From: Oscillatoriales cyanobacterium M59_W2019_021
GTDB lineage: Bacteria > Cyanobacteriota > Cyanobacteriia > Cyanobacteriales > Geitlerinemataceae
Assembly: GCA_015295945.1 (NCBI GenBank)
Contig: DVED01000082.1
Coordinates: 1-63,725, forward strand
Length of the DNA: 63,725 bases
Reading direction: 5' to 3'
Every line of letters begins with the position of its first letter. Position 1 is the first letter of the stretch. The notes under the pieces were generated by a model, which saw only the letters and a program-made list of their open reading frames with translations, did not search any database and was not told where the DNA came from. Shown here piece after piece: positions 6,514 through 9,391 of this stretch. The position numbers and the translations under genes are program-made.

Positions 6514-6688
6514 TAACGTCAGTACGGGTTAAGCAAAACCCTGTATCCCTTATTGGGGTTTGGGGTTTGGAGTTAGGGGTTTGGGGTTTGTAATTGCTAG
6601 TTGCTTTCTTCTTCCCCTGCCTCCCCTGCCTCCCCTGCTCAAGAAAGCTCCCCTCCACCGGAAGCGGTCTTATCCCGTACTGAGGTTA
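6514..6688. mobile_element. MITE-like element, copy B
   Basis: This is the second copy of the element at 5897-6086, slightly shorter internally, with the same TAAC(G/C)TCAGTACGGG terminal repeats. Its right terminal repeat ends exactly on the stop codon of the Ro60-like gene (6686-6688), so the element supplies that stop. The coding sequence may therefore have been altered at its last residues by the insertion. Confidence 0.7.
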
Positions 6689-8125
6689 TTTATCCTCCCG
6701 AACGGGTAACGGGGTCTCCAGAATCTCCATCAGCAACTCTAACCGAGACGGACGGGTCATCAGGGGGACGAGGTTCGGCAGGGAGTAGTAGTCACCTGCA
6801 AAGGTGAAGGTTTCTACGGGTGCTTGCTGCTCTTTGAGTTTGGTTTCCAGCCAGTTGTAGTACGTGCCGATGCGGACGATGACAACGTTGGGCATGACTG
6901 CCAACTCGCGGCAGTAAGCTTTGTAGGTTTCGCCGAAGTACGGCGCGGCGTTTTCCCCTTCGTCGGTGACGATGATAATTTGGTCTACAAGCTGACGCTT
7001 GCGCCGCATCACTTCCAACGCGCAGCCGATGCTGGTTCCACCTCCAGCGTTGACGCGATCGAAAGCACGCTCCCAATCGGTCAGTTCCCGACCCTGTGCG
7101 GTGATGGCATAGGGAATGGTGTCGAAGGCGTAGACGAACAGATCGGCTTCGGTGATGCCGGAAATCAGTGCGGCAAGGCGCTTTCCAACTTCGATCGCGC
7201 TGTCCATAGAACCGGATTTGTCCACCAACAGTGCGGTGGGACGGGTAATGGTTCCGCGACGCTTGACTTGTTCGTTGGTGATGCGCTCTAACTTGGCAGC
7301 CGTGTCGGCATCGAAGTCGGCAACATCGGCGGCAACTCGCGCTTTGAAGGCGGAAACTCGCGTGGATTTGGCGGCTTCCTCCAATTTGGCGTCGATGAGT
7401 TGCTTGACTTCGGGATGCTCCATCGCTCCCCGTGCCTTCAGGGAGTTGAGGTTGTTGATAACCTCTTGGGGACTCATGTTGTGGATCAGCGCCACCAGAA
7501 CGGTGGGGGTAAGCTGGTTAATCGCACCGATGGCAATGGTGTAGGGAATTTTGAATTCCACGATTAACCGCGCTTGTTCGGCGCTGCTGTCGGCTTTGGC
7601 TAACTGTTTCAAAACCGCTGCCAGAGAGCCTTCTGGGGGTTGGTTCCGGAACAGGATGGCGTTGGCTCGTTCTCCGGGTTTGACGTGCAAGCTGGCATAC
7701 AGGTGTTTCATCGCCTTCCGCGCTCGCAGTACCGCGCGATCGAACTTCACCGGGTTCTGTTCCCGCGCTTTCAAGTAACGGCGCACCGCAGTTCGTGCGG
7801 AACGCGGCAGTTTATCCAACTGCTGTTTCATAAAGTCTACAATCCGCGCCACCTGGTAAGGGGGGAACTCCTGAATCATCGCAAATCCGGCATCCCGGTG
7901 TTCGGTTAAGGGACTCGCCAGCAAGTGGCTGACGAAGACTTCTTTGTGGTCGCGCACGTCGCCGTTGTGCTGGTACCACACCGCTAAGTGACCGTAGAAA
8001 ATGGGGTCGAGTTCGACGATGAGTTTGTGGATTTCGGCAACTTTTTCCAGTTGGCGGTGAGGGGTGGTGAGCAGGCTGTTGAGCATTTCCAGCCGCAAGT
8101 CGCGTTCTGCGGTATTCATCGTCAT
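6686..8125 (-). CDS. Ro60/Rsr-like TROVE and von Willebrand A domain protein
   Basis: This 479-residue protein resembles the Ro60 autoantigen (Rsr in bacteria), a ring-shaped protein that binds Y RNAs and misfolded RNAs and directs RNA decay or repair. The N-terminal ~270 residues are helical-repeat TROVE sequence (for example [17 protein letters not shown] and [10 protein letters not shown]). The C-terminal half is a VWA domain with the MIDAS motif D302-K-S-G-S306 and later [10 protein letters not shown] strong AAGGAGG ribosome site lies eight bases before the ATG at 8125. The same strand carries, upstream, two tRNA-like RNAs, a permuted tRNA-like RNA and a 66-residue gene. The C-terminus ends inside a MITE end. 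The family call is firm, but the RNA partner is inferred. Confidence 0.85.
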
Positions 8126-8524
8126 ACCTTTTGCCTCCTTATCGGTTTTGAGTTGTCATAATCGCCTTAACTTCCTTTTAAAATCCTCCGATTTCTACGG
8201 GTTGACGGAGATAAAGGGGAGCAATAGAGCCGCACAAGTCGATCGAACTTTGGTATTTGTGCCTGCTATCGGTCTCAGGCTTGCAGTGCATCCCGTCACG
8301 GCGCACACCTTGTTTTTTTTGGGAGACGTATGTAAGTTCGATCGGTAAGGATGCGGCAAATTTTATTAAGAAAGGCAGAGGGCAGAAGGCAGAATGTATT
8401 TATTTATTTGAATGCTGCATCCATCAAAAGGGGAAGTTTCTAATTTCTTCTATTCTGAACTCCTGTAACTCCTACACTCCTGAACTCCTATTTCAAAAAC
8501 ACCTCGTATAAGTTGAAAAAGCTG
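8126..8524. other. Spacer between tRNA-like RNA 1 and the Ro60-like gene
   Basis: About 400 bases separate the last tRNA-like RNA from the Ro60-like gene. I see no gene here. On the plus strand 8451-8500 carries CTCCTGTAACTCCTACACTCCTG, a short tandem repeat found at several other sites in the window. No clear terminator hairpin separates the RNAs from the protein gene. Confidence 0.4.
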
Positions 8525-8599
8525 TGGTAACACACACGGGAATTGAACCCGCGTCGGATCGATCTTAAGTCGATTGCTCTACCTCTGAGCTAGTATGTA
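8525..8599 (-). ncRNA. tRNA-like RNA 1 (class I fold, UAA anticodon)
   Basis: The minus strand folds as a tRNA: acceptor strand TACATAC, D stem GCTC/GAGC with GG in the loop, a perfect anticodon stem ATCGA/TCGAT around CTTAAGA, a five-base variable loop, T arm GCGGG-TTCAATT-CCCGT, acceptor strand GTGTGTT, then A and an encoded CCA. The anticodon reads UAA (leucine), yet bacterial leucine tRNAs have a long variable arm, which is absent here. Position 1-72 is a U-U mismatch. It shares its acceptor 5' strand and a leader with RNA 2. It could be a tRNA mimic of the Ro60 locus, an unusual tRNA or a decayed one. Confidence 0.65.
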
Positions 8600-8672
8600 A
8601 GCTTTATCGGTTGGGACACGAAGTGCTTTTGGGAGTGCCTCGCGCAAGTTCAAAAAGCGGTTGGTTTGCGGA

Positions 8673-8766
8673 AAATGCGGTCTTGGGGTTTCCCCAGCGG
8701 GAAATGCGGTCTTGGGGTTTCCCCAAGTGGAGCAATTTCCCAAGACAAGTGGAGCAATTTTCCAAG
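8673..8766. repeat. Tandem repeats with GGGGTTTCCCC hairpins between the tRNA-like RNAs
   Basis: The block AAATGCGGTCTTGGGGTTTCCCC occurs twice (from about 8674 and 8702), each copy holding a self-complementary GGGG-TTT-CCCC core. The second copy extends to CTTGGGG-TTT-CCCCAAG. It is followed by two copies of AGTGGAGCAATTT(C/T)CCAAGAC. The block begins right after the 3' end of RNA 2 in transcription order and could act as a trailer, processing signal or attenuator. Confidence 0.6.
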
Positions 8767-8838
8767 ACACATACACAGGATTTGAACCTGCTACCGTTCG
8801 ATTTACTGTCGAATGCTCTACCAATGAGCTAGTATGTA
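8767..8838 (-). ncRNA. tRNA-like RNA 2 (class I fold, degenerate anticodon loop)
   Basis: The minus strand forms a full cloverleaf: acceptor TACATAC with GTATGTG, D stem GCTC/GAGC, anticodon stem TTCGA/TCGAA with loop CAGTAAA, a five-base variable loop and T arm GCAGG-TTCAAAT-CCTGT. The formal anticodon would be GUA (tyrosine), but the invariant U33 is A, the long variable arm of bacterial tyrosine tRNA is missing, and no CCA is encoded (TCTTGG follows). It is therefore unlikely to work in translation. It is a paralogue of RNA 1 with an identical acceptor 5' strand. Confidence 0.65.
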
Positions 8839-8928
8839 CGCTTTTTAAGTTTGGGCGCGATGCGAATTAAGGTCTACATTTTTAGGGATTGAATGAACCG
8901 CACGAGTTAGAAAAGAAAGTCAGGCATA

Positions 8929-9008
8929 TCTATCGCGTTTACCACTCCGCCACCAATGCAAGGCGCATTGGGTGGGATTTGAACCCACGAGTCCTTGCGG
9001 ACAATAGA
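8929..9008 (-). ncRNA. Circularly permuted tRNA-like RNA (YrlA-type Y RNA candidate)
   Basis: On the minus strand tRNA parts occur in rotated order. First comes the 3' strand of an anticodon-type stem, TCTATT, then a variable hairpin GTCC-GCAA-GGAC, a T arm GTGGG-TTCAAAT-CCCAC and an acceptor hairpin CCAATGC-GCCTT-GCATTGG. A D arm (GCG stem with GG in the loop, closing CGC) and the 5' stem strand GATAGA complete it. TCTATT pairs with GATAGA, so the ends emerge where the anticodon loop would be. As I recall the literature, this is how bacterial YrlA Y RNAs mimic tRNA, with the Ro60-binding stem in place of the anticodon. The Ro60-like gene lies downstream on the same strand. The outer stem could not be resolved by eye. 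Confidence 0.75.
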
Positions 9009-9063
9009 CTGGAAATAGCGTGTATTCTTTTAAGGTTAGGGCGCGGTTATTCGGGTTTTGAGC

Positions 9064-9264
9064 TTATCCGTAAACAGCTTCGGGACGGATGATAATATCT
9101 CCGCTGGGACGACGATCGACAATATAGAATTGCAGGCGATCGCTAGCAATATCGAAGTATCTGGCAACTCGTTCTTTGACTGCCATATCGTTCATTTGCG
9201 ATCGGATTCCCAGTTGAGTTTCGCTCATGTCGTAAGAGCGACCTTCTAAGCGAATGTGAACCAC
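9064..9264 (-). CDS. Small protein of the Ro60 locus, unrecognised
   Basis: This 66-residue protein starts at a GTG (9264) with a near-perfect AAGGAGGT ribosome site six bases upstream, so translation is well supported. It is acidic-basic mixed, without membrane segment or signal, opening [12 protein letters not shown] and ending [13 protein letters not shown] do not recognise the family with certainty. It is the first gene after the promoter at 9352-9380 and is followed by the permuted tRNA-like RNA, so it is probably co-transcribed with the RNAs and functionally tied to the Ro60-like protein. The alternating hydrophobic pattern would suit a small beta-rich fold, but that is only a guess. 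Confidence 0.7.
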
Positions 9265-9290
9265 GATCGAACCTCCTTTTTGAAAATTTA

Positions 9291-9320
9291 GAGGTCAAGT
9301 AAAACCATCGGTTCGACCTC
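9291..9320 (-). promoter_or_regulatory. Leader hairpin upstream of the 66-residue gene
   Basis: GAGGTC (9291-9296) pairs with GACCTC (9315-9320), and inside it AACC pairs with GGTT. The structure lies in the predicted untranslated leader, ending about 12 bases before the ribosome site of the 66-residue gene. A regulatory role is possible but unproven. Confidence 0.4.
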
Positions 9321-9351
9321 CAGGTTGGAATTGAATTCCTTTCATATTTCT

Positions 9352-9391
9352 ATACTACATAAATACTACATAGCTGTCAAGAGGATACTAC
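9352..9391 (-). promoter_or_regulatory. Promoter of the Ro60 locus with three phased GTAGTAT repeats
   Basis: On the minus strand TTGACA (9375-9380) and TAGTAT (9352-9357) are separated by exactly 17 bases, close to the sigma-70 consensus. The heptamer GTAGTAT occurs three times, at 9352-9358, 9363-9369 and 9385-9391, spaced 11 and 22 bases apart and so on one face of the helix. The copies overlap the -10 region, the spacer and the region just upstream of -35, as expected for a repressor operator. Transcription would start near 9345, about 80 bases before the GTG. Confidence 0.65.

Follow-up and report, generated by a model that had tools for sequence, protein, structure and literature searches.

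A probable Ro60 locus in an Oscillatoriales cyanobacterium with Y-like RNAs resembling parts of the translation machinery

The DNA analysed here, called the window, is a stretch of 63,725 nt from Oscillatoriales cyanobacterium M59_W2019_021 (GCA_015295945.1, contig DVED01000082.1, positions 1 to 63,725). Its minus strand holds a unit that runs from a promoter through a 66-codon gene and four RNAs to a 479-codon Ro60-like gene (Table 1), and this unit is very probably a Ro60/Y-like RNA locus that belongs to a system of translation mimics. The computed results are the anatomy, covariation and mimicry of the RNAs, the Ro60 fold of the protein model, the conservation of the 66-amino-acid (aa) protein, the presence of one operator on three contigs, and the co-inheritance of Ro60, the 66-aa gene and a gene called EGWGIF. 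Whether the locus also makes a particle that is induced by translational stress, in which Ro60 carries Y RNAs that serve as baits by resembling tRNA and the factor sites of the ribosome, is an evenly balanced question. A sequence-only reading of the window had proposed one minus-strand unit with a promoter, a 66-residue protein, a permuted and two further tRNA-like RNAs and a Ro60-like open reading frame (ORF), and all of these parts were located.

The four RNAs share one plan, recognised by eye and by folding, in which an outer stem, an internal loop and an inner stem are followed by UACAUAC or a similar stretch and then by an effector domain. The internal loop of this handle has CCYWAAC-type letters on its 5’ side and AACTT-type letters on its 3’ side. 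The three tRNA-like RNAs proposed from the sequence are present, and a fourth RNA of the same architecture, directly upstream of Ro60, had been overlooked. Two of the three had been described simply as further tRNA-like RNAs; their cores are real, with Rfam tRNA scores of 58.1 bits (RNA 3) and 52.4 bits (RNA 2), and both are embedded in a longer stem, to which the tRNA is joined at the acceptor stem. Compared with shuffled sequences, folding is strong for RNA 2 (z -4.2) and RNA 3 (z -2.9) and moderate for RNA 1 (z -2.5). RNA 4 folds unremarkably (z -1.55, 13 of 200 shuffles as good), so the case for it rests on its handle and on its relatives, which are effectors found at the same position relative to Ro60 in three other loci (L072 at -201, L076 at -203 and L089 at -203). 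Rfam gives just two chance-level microRNA rows for RNA 4, and the possibility that it is an rRNA mimic was dropped after a profile of seven such effectors matched nothing in an rrn operon. The RNA 4 type, standing before the Ro60 start, suggests together with a class of short effectors a Ro60-binding leader that acts in autoregulation. Repeat-like insertions within effectors, in the T arm or the 3’ flank and with the handle kept, occur in the window (8640-8766, minus strand) and in two other loci (L068 at -628, L126 at -1811).

A handle finder run over both strands of the window (127 kb) gives exactly four matches, all at the Ro60 locus. The finder demands AACT[TC] or GACTT, CC and a TACA-like motif, and these letters are therefore not independent evidence; the specificity of the matches and the covariation are. 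A covariance model of the RNAs with tRNA in normal order, for which 150 of 1258 candidates in the window’s genome were scored, exceeds 70 bits over its full length only at RNA 3 (125.4 bits, RNA 3 being itself a member of the model) and RNA 2 (75.9 bits), and gives RNA 1 28 bits. RNA 1 fits the plan of YrlA, with outer and inner stems, T arm and acceptor (27 pairs of the covarying model) and a D arm read by eye. In the YrlA plan the Ro60-binding stem takes the place of the anticodon arm, which RNAs 2 and 3 by contrast retain; all five pairs of this arm (helix 4) show double changes in the class of RNA 3, and the join is at the acceptor.

Relatives of the locus were collected in two ways. Among 59 genomes, the window’s own included, 21 match at E ≤ 0.001, two of them (G001 and G015) with weak VWA matches. 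The 13 other genomes of the window’s family give no strong match, and the gene is thus patchy. A scan of genome records gave 205 Ro60 loci, the best 80 of which were kept, all with cyanobacterial titles. These hold 291 handle RNAs, at most eight in one locus. Absence of the RNAs beside orthologous genes in relatives was checked for, and at least one stands beside Ro60 in 75 of the 80 loci; the data support the reading of a Ro60 and Y RNA locus that has its own small protein. All 291 lie on the Ro60 strand between -8.5 and 0 kb or between +1.4 and 5.5 kb, and none elsewhere on that strand (574 kb), with bounds that were chosen after the matches had been seen; the control on the opposite strand, which does not depend on these bounds, has no match in 1,463 kb. 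The finder detects none in L103, L106, L107, L114 and L125, four of which have less than 2 kb of sequence before Ro60; the fifth, L106, has 7.6 kb there and carries Ro60 twice.

Four classes of handle RNA were aligned after setting limits on effector length, requiring a stem score of at least 33 and dropping duplicates. The alignments contain RNA 3 with 59 of 103 eligible normal-order RNAs, RNA 1 with 34 of 60 eligible permuted RNAs, an RNA from contig C155 of the window’s genome with 18 of 28 eligible RNAs of a type resembling the sarcin-ricin loop and the GTPase-associated centre (SRL/GAC), and all 15 eligible RNAs of a type resembling helix 69 (H69), a class with 26 distinct sequences from which those with large insertions or weak stems were left out. 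The normal-order class (60 sequences, 31 pairs) has 97.2% of its cells paired and 279 cells with double changes, and its covariation is 0.481 against 0.217 after shuffling (reached by 0 of 500 shuffles) and at most 0.124 in slid controls. The permuted class (35 sequences) gives 0.552 against 0.211 (0 of 500) and at most 0.163 when slid. For the H69 class (15 sequences) the values are 0.287 and 0.186 (0 of 500), and the number of further pair types is unexceptional (177 of 500 shuffles). RNAalifold keeps 48 pairs in the SRL/GAC class, 16 of them with double changes. Kinship among sequences can beat shuffles without any structure; it is the low score of the slid controls that speaks for structure as the source of the covariation.

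The effectors of the 80 loci fall into 124 tRNAs of normal order, 72 permuted tRNAs (labels are automatic, and the permuted set includes some normal-order tRNAs with insertions, such as RNA 2 of the window), 31 of SRL/GAC type in 30 loci, 27 of H69 type in 27 loci, 12 short ones, four of the type of RNA 4 and 21 others. The H69 count holds for a loose pattern that allows up to 7 changes in 21, and the strict pattern gives 19 over the window and the 84 loci, genomic and viral, described below. The anticodon loop has 7 nt in 57 of the sixty aligned normal-order mimics; these 57 display 20 different triplets, and 51 of them have U33.

The window’s draft genome seems to lack the rRNA operon, and the rrn operon of genome G045 therefore served as the 23S reference. 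The SRL/GAC profile matches it over 83 nt of the GTPase-associated centre (E 1.4e-12); the sarcin-ricin part has 14 identical bases and on its own E 0.099, below the inclusion threshold. The H69 profile matches 31 nt (E 8.7e-7), and a second 23S piece upstream of H69 gives E 0.53. With the operon reversed, both profiles are without a match. The matches are computed, and the 23S parts concerned are ones that we take to be H69, SRL and GAC. The archaeal large-subunit rRNA model of Rfam aligns one GAC mimic (E 1.6e-12, 46.6 bits, gathering score 50), and Rfam gives nothing at E ≤ 5 for the H69-type RNA of L126. In the 19 aligned SRL/GAC RNAs the columns of AGUACGAGAGG are invariant, the GAC part is present in every row, and AGUACGAGAGGA is kept except for a one-base gap next to its last base in 3 of 19. 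Helix 69 has one strand at each extremity of the effector, and the two covary (helix 4, four of six pairs with double changes). This rRNA piece therefore appears to be a circular permutation in which the handle is inserted at the H69 loop, just as it is inserted at the anticodon loop in the permuted tRNAs.

The protein encoded at the end of the unit is, by predicted fold, a Ro60, in which helical repeats form a ring that a VWA domain at the C-terminus closes. It had been called a TROVE-VWA protein; the VWA part stands, as VWA_CoxE is the sole Pfam match above cut-off, and the Ro60 part stands by predicted fold, while the Pfam TROVE model is unmatched at E ≤ 1. A missing TROVE profile match does not exclude a divergent member of the family, and the identity given here follows from the fold. 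The AlphaFold (AF2) model, built on a 21-sequence alignment, has pLDDT 86.5 and pTM 0.80. Its ten best Foldseek rows are nine Ro60/Rsr chains and one Trove-domain chain (E 3.5e-12 to 2.1e-10), which include Deinococcus Rsr 2nvo and the Ro60 of a Thermus phage, and the best row is Ro60 9nfa (TM 0.71, E 3.5e-12). The VIA comparison gives Z 22.4 over 437 residues to Ro60 with a root-mean-square deviation of 3.9, against 15.8 for the best chain that has VWA only. DxSxS is the MIDAS motif, and it is formed here by Asp302, Ser304 and Ser306, which are invariant in 21 sequences. Many Ro60 orthologues begin at MNTAERDLR, which lies two codons into the ORF of the window. A phmmer search of the PDB with the protein finds nothing at E ≤ 0.001, and the PADLOC family ZorF was set aside as a weak row (E 0.0017).

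Table 1. Features of the Ro60-like locus, in coordinates of the window
Feature	Position	Strand	Basis or remark
Ro60-like protein, 479 aa, predicted helical repeats and C-terminal VWA, DxSxS at residues 302-306	6686..8125	-	ORF, fold
Y-like RNA 4, handle and unclassified effector CTGCAAGCCTGAGACCGATAGCAGGC, directly upstream of Ro60 start	8229..8357	-	
Y-like RNA 3, handle and normal-order tRNA-like domain	8494..8631	-	
tRNA-like core of RNA 3	8525..8599	-	ARAGORN Leu TAA
Y-like RNA 2, handle, normal-order tRNA-like domain and repeat-rich 3’ insertion	8640..8860	-	
tRNA-like core of RNA 2	8766..8838	-	ARAGORN Tyr GTA
Y-like RNA 1, handle and circularly permuted tRNA-like domain with long variable arm	8896..9048	-	
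66-aa conserved protein, ubiquitin-like beta-grasp candidate, ends PEAVYG	9064..9264	-	GTG start, AGGAGG at 9272-9277
-10 box TAGTAT	9352..9357	-	identical to -10 of Anabaena trn operon promoter (PMC10272220)
TGTAGTAT, TrcR-type operator overlapping -10 box	9352..9359	-	published footprinted sequence
Second TGTAGTAT, inside 13-mer TGTAGTATTTATG (9358-9370)	9363..9370	-	13-mer 3 times in genome
-35 box TTGACA	9375..9380	-	17-nt spacer to TAGTAT
Third TGTAGTAT, upstream of -35	9385..9392	-	sequence search of window

The promoter points to a link between the locus and translational stress. In Anabaena PCC 7120, TGTAGTAT overlapping TAGTAT is the footprinted operator at which TrcR controls the trn operon of 26 tRNAs, and this operon is derepressed by antibiotics that block translation (PMC10272220). 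TrcR represses the trn array, rtcB, rsgA and rimK, and a slipin gene is among its targets (PMC10272220). The same arrangement of TGTAGTAT over the -10 box is found at the Ro60 locus. The window has three copies of TGTAGTAT, all within 41 bp of this promoter, where about 1.9 would be expected by chance over both strands, and a search of both strands gives no further copy. In 67 loci, the 23,450 bp that precede the first element contain 54 copies and the other 1,282,331 bp contain 130, an enrichment of about 23-fold. From these sequences we infer that TrcR may control the Ro60 locus. After erythromycin a ‘TROVE domain protein’ gene of Chlorogloeopsis rises dramatically, as does an SPFH gene, unexplained by the authors (PMC6424891), and in a stressed coculture TROVE and RtcB genes rise together (PMC11423583); the TROVE genes concerned may not be of the present Ro60 subfamily.

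The 4.99 Mb of the window’s genome hold exactly three copies of the 13-mer TGTAGTATTTATG, at the Ro60 promoter, on contig C117 ahead of a gene for an elongation factor G (EF-G) fragment and EGWGIF (56 nt before the fragment gene), and on contig C155 ahead of an SRL/GAC RNA (about 330 nt before it); the reversed 13-mer is absent from the same 4.99 Mb. One operator is thus common to loci on three contigs, and the content of these loci overlaps in relatives. The RNA on C155 is 78% identical over 50 nt of the GAC. Long exact H69 and SRL patterns and a shorter H69 pattern find nothing in the genome, and a shorter SRL pattern finds one copy, which is the C155 mimic. This copy was rejected as genuine rRNA, with no 16S or H69 motif in the surrounding 9 kb and with a handle by alignment. 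A looser handle finder gives one doubtful extra match near the C155 RNA and misses that RNA itself. EGWGIF on C117 (63%) follows a gene whose product has only domains IV-V of EF-G (PF03764 and PF00679; L189, G000:C117, 8319-8891, minus); this gene was discarded as a constant partner, as beyond the window’s genome it occurs in one of 84 loci (L113). An E1 of the same type as in the relatives lies on C184 (70%). The looser pattern of TTGAC, a spacer and TGTAGTAT is found in the window and at G000:C91:1188-1215, minus (L198).

The first gene of the unit is conserved along with Ro60. It lies upstream in 14 of 20 sister loci (56-70% identity) and is present in 67 of the 80 loci; of the remaining 13, L066, L106, L121 and L128 have 6-10 kb upstream and therefore appear truly to have no recognisable copy. 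Fifteen aligned sequences have 19 invariant columns, one of which is the C-terminal glycine. The model of the 66-aa protein (pLDDT 90) has the order bbabb, and most of its top VIA rows have a ubiquitin-like fold (best Z 5.3, with 5.0 to ubiquitin variants). A ubiquitin-like role is suggested for it by this model and mainly by the E1, and the protein may be conjugated.

Partner genes were searched by tblastn in 84 loci, which are the 80 genomic loci and four viral ones. EGWGIF is found in 61, a ThiF-type E1 in 58, a protein called MSEHRL in 48, an L7/L12 paralogue in 32, a 160-aa protein in 19, DUF6847 in seven and an elongation factor Ts (EF-Ts) paralogue in five. Clustering adds a Tpt1/KptA RNA 2’-phosphotransferase in 11 loci and a GNAT protein in 15 (one representative of each scanned). 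The E1, of which one representative was scanned, is ThiF (PF00899); it has 54 bits with PRTRC_ThiF, whose cut-off is 145, and matches the E1 part of the E1-E2 models of PADLOC. No E2, JAB or deconjugase is recognised among the partner proteins scanned. Two EGWGIF members scanned have no Pfam or NCBIfam family; the protein (L049, 13316-14149) is kept from cyanobacteria to a large phage and has SGICLSG near its C-terminus. MSEHRL, about 241 aa and of no known family, lies between the Y RNAs and Ro60 (L049, 8626-9351, and 47 other loci). PADLOC gives no rows for the 66-aa, MSEHRL, EGWGIF and DUF6847 proteins, and DrmMII was rejected for the 160-aa protein as a weak row (E 0.021). Within the class, 24 of 242 genomes have Ro60 (E ≤ 1e-30), 27 have the 66-aa gene (E ≤ 1e-8) and 27 have EGWGIF (E ≤ 1e-15); each of the latter two is present in 23 of the 24 Ro60 genomes, the exceptions being G152, where only a Ro60 fragment was seen, and G091.

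The set also occurs in a large phage and, in part, on other viral contigs. The 595-kb phage record LR756511.1 (L191) encodes, within 25 kb, Ro60 (47.5%), a homologue of the 66-aa protein (29%), handle RNAs with tRNA in both normal and permuted order, EGWGIF, E1 and tRNA genes; no rRNA mimic was seen in the stretch examined. Four further viral contigs have Ro60 and EGWGIF, two of which add handle RNAs and the 66-aa gene and two add E1. Near 11 of the 80 cyanobacterial loci, at a distance of up to about 12 kb, stand 8 to 32 ordinary tRNA genes. At L072, L076, L089, L100, L102, L115, L116, L117 and L120, 19 to 32 of them lie at most 10 kb from the Ro60 locus.

These parts can be joined into one mechanism. 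From its position the single promoter, which has TrcR-type operators, could drive the small beta-grasp candidate, the four Y-like RNAs and Ro60. The RNAs would be transcribed with the unit, and Ro60 would grip the common handle, as its predicted fold and the position of the RNAs suggest. Each RNA pairs the handle with a different effector, and across cyanobacteria the effectors cover tRNA in normal or permuted order, 23S helices 69-71, and the SRL fused to the GAC. An attack on translation would relieve the repressor, the particles would then serve as baits for agents that otherwise hit tRNA or a ribosomal factor site, and captured proteins or damaged RNA may be handed to the co-inherited pair of E1 and small protein and to RNA-repair enzymes. 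The imitated surfaces are those used by tRNAs and elongation factors and attacked by many translation poisons. Baiting is ranked first because these surfaces are often attacked, the anticodons are diverse, the operator is one of translation stress, and a phage with tRNA genes carries the cassette. In the most complete form of this reading, the locus would encode a new class of immunity or stress particle, a Ro60 ring with interchangeable RNA baits made of translation parts and with paralogues of stalk proteins and elongation factors, in which the E1 and small-protein pair would tag whatever takes the bait. The baits would then be tRNAs of many anticodons, helix 69-71 and the SRL-GAC fusion, and the phage would combine the protein set with its own tRNA baits. 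This full form is possible but less likely than not. Competitive inhibition of an anticodon nuclease has been offered as one possible role of YrlA (PMC7790460).

Several observations weigh against this mechanism. Salmonella YrlA is not cut by a RecA-dependent tRNA nuclease (PMC7790460), which argues against bait by cleavage but leaves competitive binding unaffected. The H69 mimics have other letters in place of the rRNA stretch that follows GAAATTC, and they would be no bait for an agent that reads this stretch. The Rfam and rrn-operon comparisons reveal no known RNA that RNA 4 resembles. Exact TGTAGTAT is present in just 37 of the 67 loci and TTGAC with a spacer and TGTAGTAT in 8 of 67, and the E1 gene of the window’s genome has no copy of TGTAGTAT in the 3.6 kb that surround it. 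The VIA Z of about 5 for the 66-aa model is below the reliable level of the tool, and Foldseek has no match for it at E ≤ 0.001 (best E 0.38). The window carries none of the partner genes searched by tblastn; the 66-aa gene occurs without Ro60 in four genomes, as does EGWGIF in four; and the handle of the C155 RNA has CACTT for RACTT, so that the alignment shows it and the finder misses it.

Ranked close behind baiting, and possible if somewhat unlikely, is a model in which the effectors are docking sites, as in RYPER, that recruit enzymes of tRNA and rRNA modification, decay or repair, while the ring feeds them damaged or misfolded RNAs. It draws on the published Deinococcus complex of Rsr, Y RNA and PNPase and on the modification of YrlA by DusA and TruB through its tRNA-like domain (both PMC8394870), on rtcB as a member of the Anabaena TrcR regulon (PMC10272220) and on the Tpt1/KptA cluster. 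Docking alone leaves unexplained why the SRL is fused to the GAC, which is a factor-binding site, why genes for L7/L12, EF-Ts and EF-G domains IV-V accompany the loci, and why the normal-order tRNAs show so many different anticodons.

Those factor genes are best explained by a third model, in which the RNAs and the L7/L12 and EF-Ts paralogues form a mock GTPase centre that sequesters or recycles elongation factor Tu (EF-Tu), EF-G or other translational GTPases under stress. The union of GAC and SRL in one RNA, the almost complete retention of AGUACGAGAGGA in its 19 rows, the frequency of the L7/L12 paralogue with the occasional EF-Ts, and the placing of the EF-G domain IV-V gene of the window’s genome under TGTAGTATTTATG all fit. 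The window’s own locus has neither an rRNA mimic nor a factor gene, EF-Ts is rare and the EF-G fragment is found in a single one of the 84 loci, and this model is judged improbable.

A cis-acting role for the rRNA-like parts, as leaders by which genes for ribosomal-protein or factor paralogues regulate themselves, would follow an established kind of regulation, as rRNA mimicry is known in the leaders of ribosomal-protein mRNAs, and a handle RNA starts at most 400 nt from the Ro60 start in 24 of the 80 loci. It is nevertheless very unlikely, for the SRL/GAC RNAs bear the same handle as the tRNA mimics and lie mostly downstream of Ro60, before the EGWGIF and E1 genes and not before L7/L12. Least credible of all is the view of the tRNA-like domains as normal or emergency tRNAs that an odd operon encodes and that, once excised, serve translation: two of them pass as tRNA in ARAGORN and Rfam, and tRNA arrays stand near some loci, but the long variable arm expected of Tyr and Leu tRNAs is replaced by short loops in RNAs 2 and 3, their acceptor strands, with a UACAUAC common to non-tRNA effectors, run into the covarying handle, and the idea is impossible for the permuted and rRNA classes.

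The purpose of the effector domain of Y RNAs is a long-standing question, and it becomes testable where one handle carries a whole series of effectors. The identities of these name candidate partners, which are tRNA ligands, EF-G, EF-Tu, L11/L12 and ribosome-directed toxins. Baiting, if true, would be a new principle of bacterial and phage defence; docking, if true, would mean that Ro60 particles are addressed to the ribosome.

Among known systems, the trn array of Anabaena PCC 7120 under TrcR has the same TGTAGTAT overlapping TAGTAT, and tRNA arrays near Ro60 loci are a further likeness; as to differences, the main text of the paper has none of the words ‘Ro60’, ‘Rsr’, ‘TROVE’ or ‘von Willebrand’, nor has its Table 1. 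PRTRC and E1-E2 defence systems likewise have a ThiF-family E1, here in the same loci as a small beta-grasp candidate, and differ in that the cyanobacterial partners scanned show no recognised E2 or JAB and EGWGIF matches no family. Handle RNAs that copy SRL and GAC are described in none of the full-text literature matches listed, a set that leaves the main bacterial Y RNA reviews outside its coverage, so that prior mention is possible. TROVE proteins of jumbo phages are published (PMC7824862), and LR756511.1 shares the protein set of the cyanobacterial loci; rRNA mimics and E1 are not mentioned in the available parts of that paper.

The Salmonella rsr-yrlBA-rtcBA operon resembles the present locus in its Ro60 orthologue, its adjacent tRNA-like Y RNAs, its induction by stress and its RNA-repair context (PMC7790460). 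It differs in having RtcR and not TrcR as regulator, and the available parts of PMC7790460 do not mention rRNA mimics, a 66-aa protein or E1. With YrlA (RF02553) the likeness is in the plan of RNA 1, which has a long stem of the two ends and D, T and acceptor arms (PMC8394870). RNA 1 has this plan but fails the Rfam score, as the model gives no row at E ≤ 5 over 8100-9100 of the window and 19 bits, against a gathering score of 69, in a related phage, and RNAs 2 and 3 differ from it in topology, keeping the anticodon arm and joining at the acceptor stem. A further comparison is with Deinococcus RYPER, which has the Ro60 fold and a Y RNA made of a Ro60-binding stem and an effector domain (PMC8394870); the link to PNPase is one published for Deinococcus, and the cyanobacterial loci array up to eight detected RNAs with several kinds of effector.

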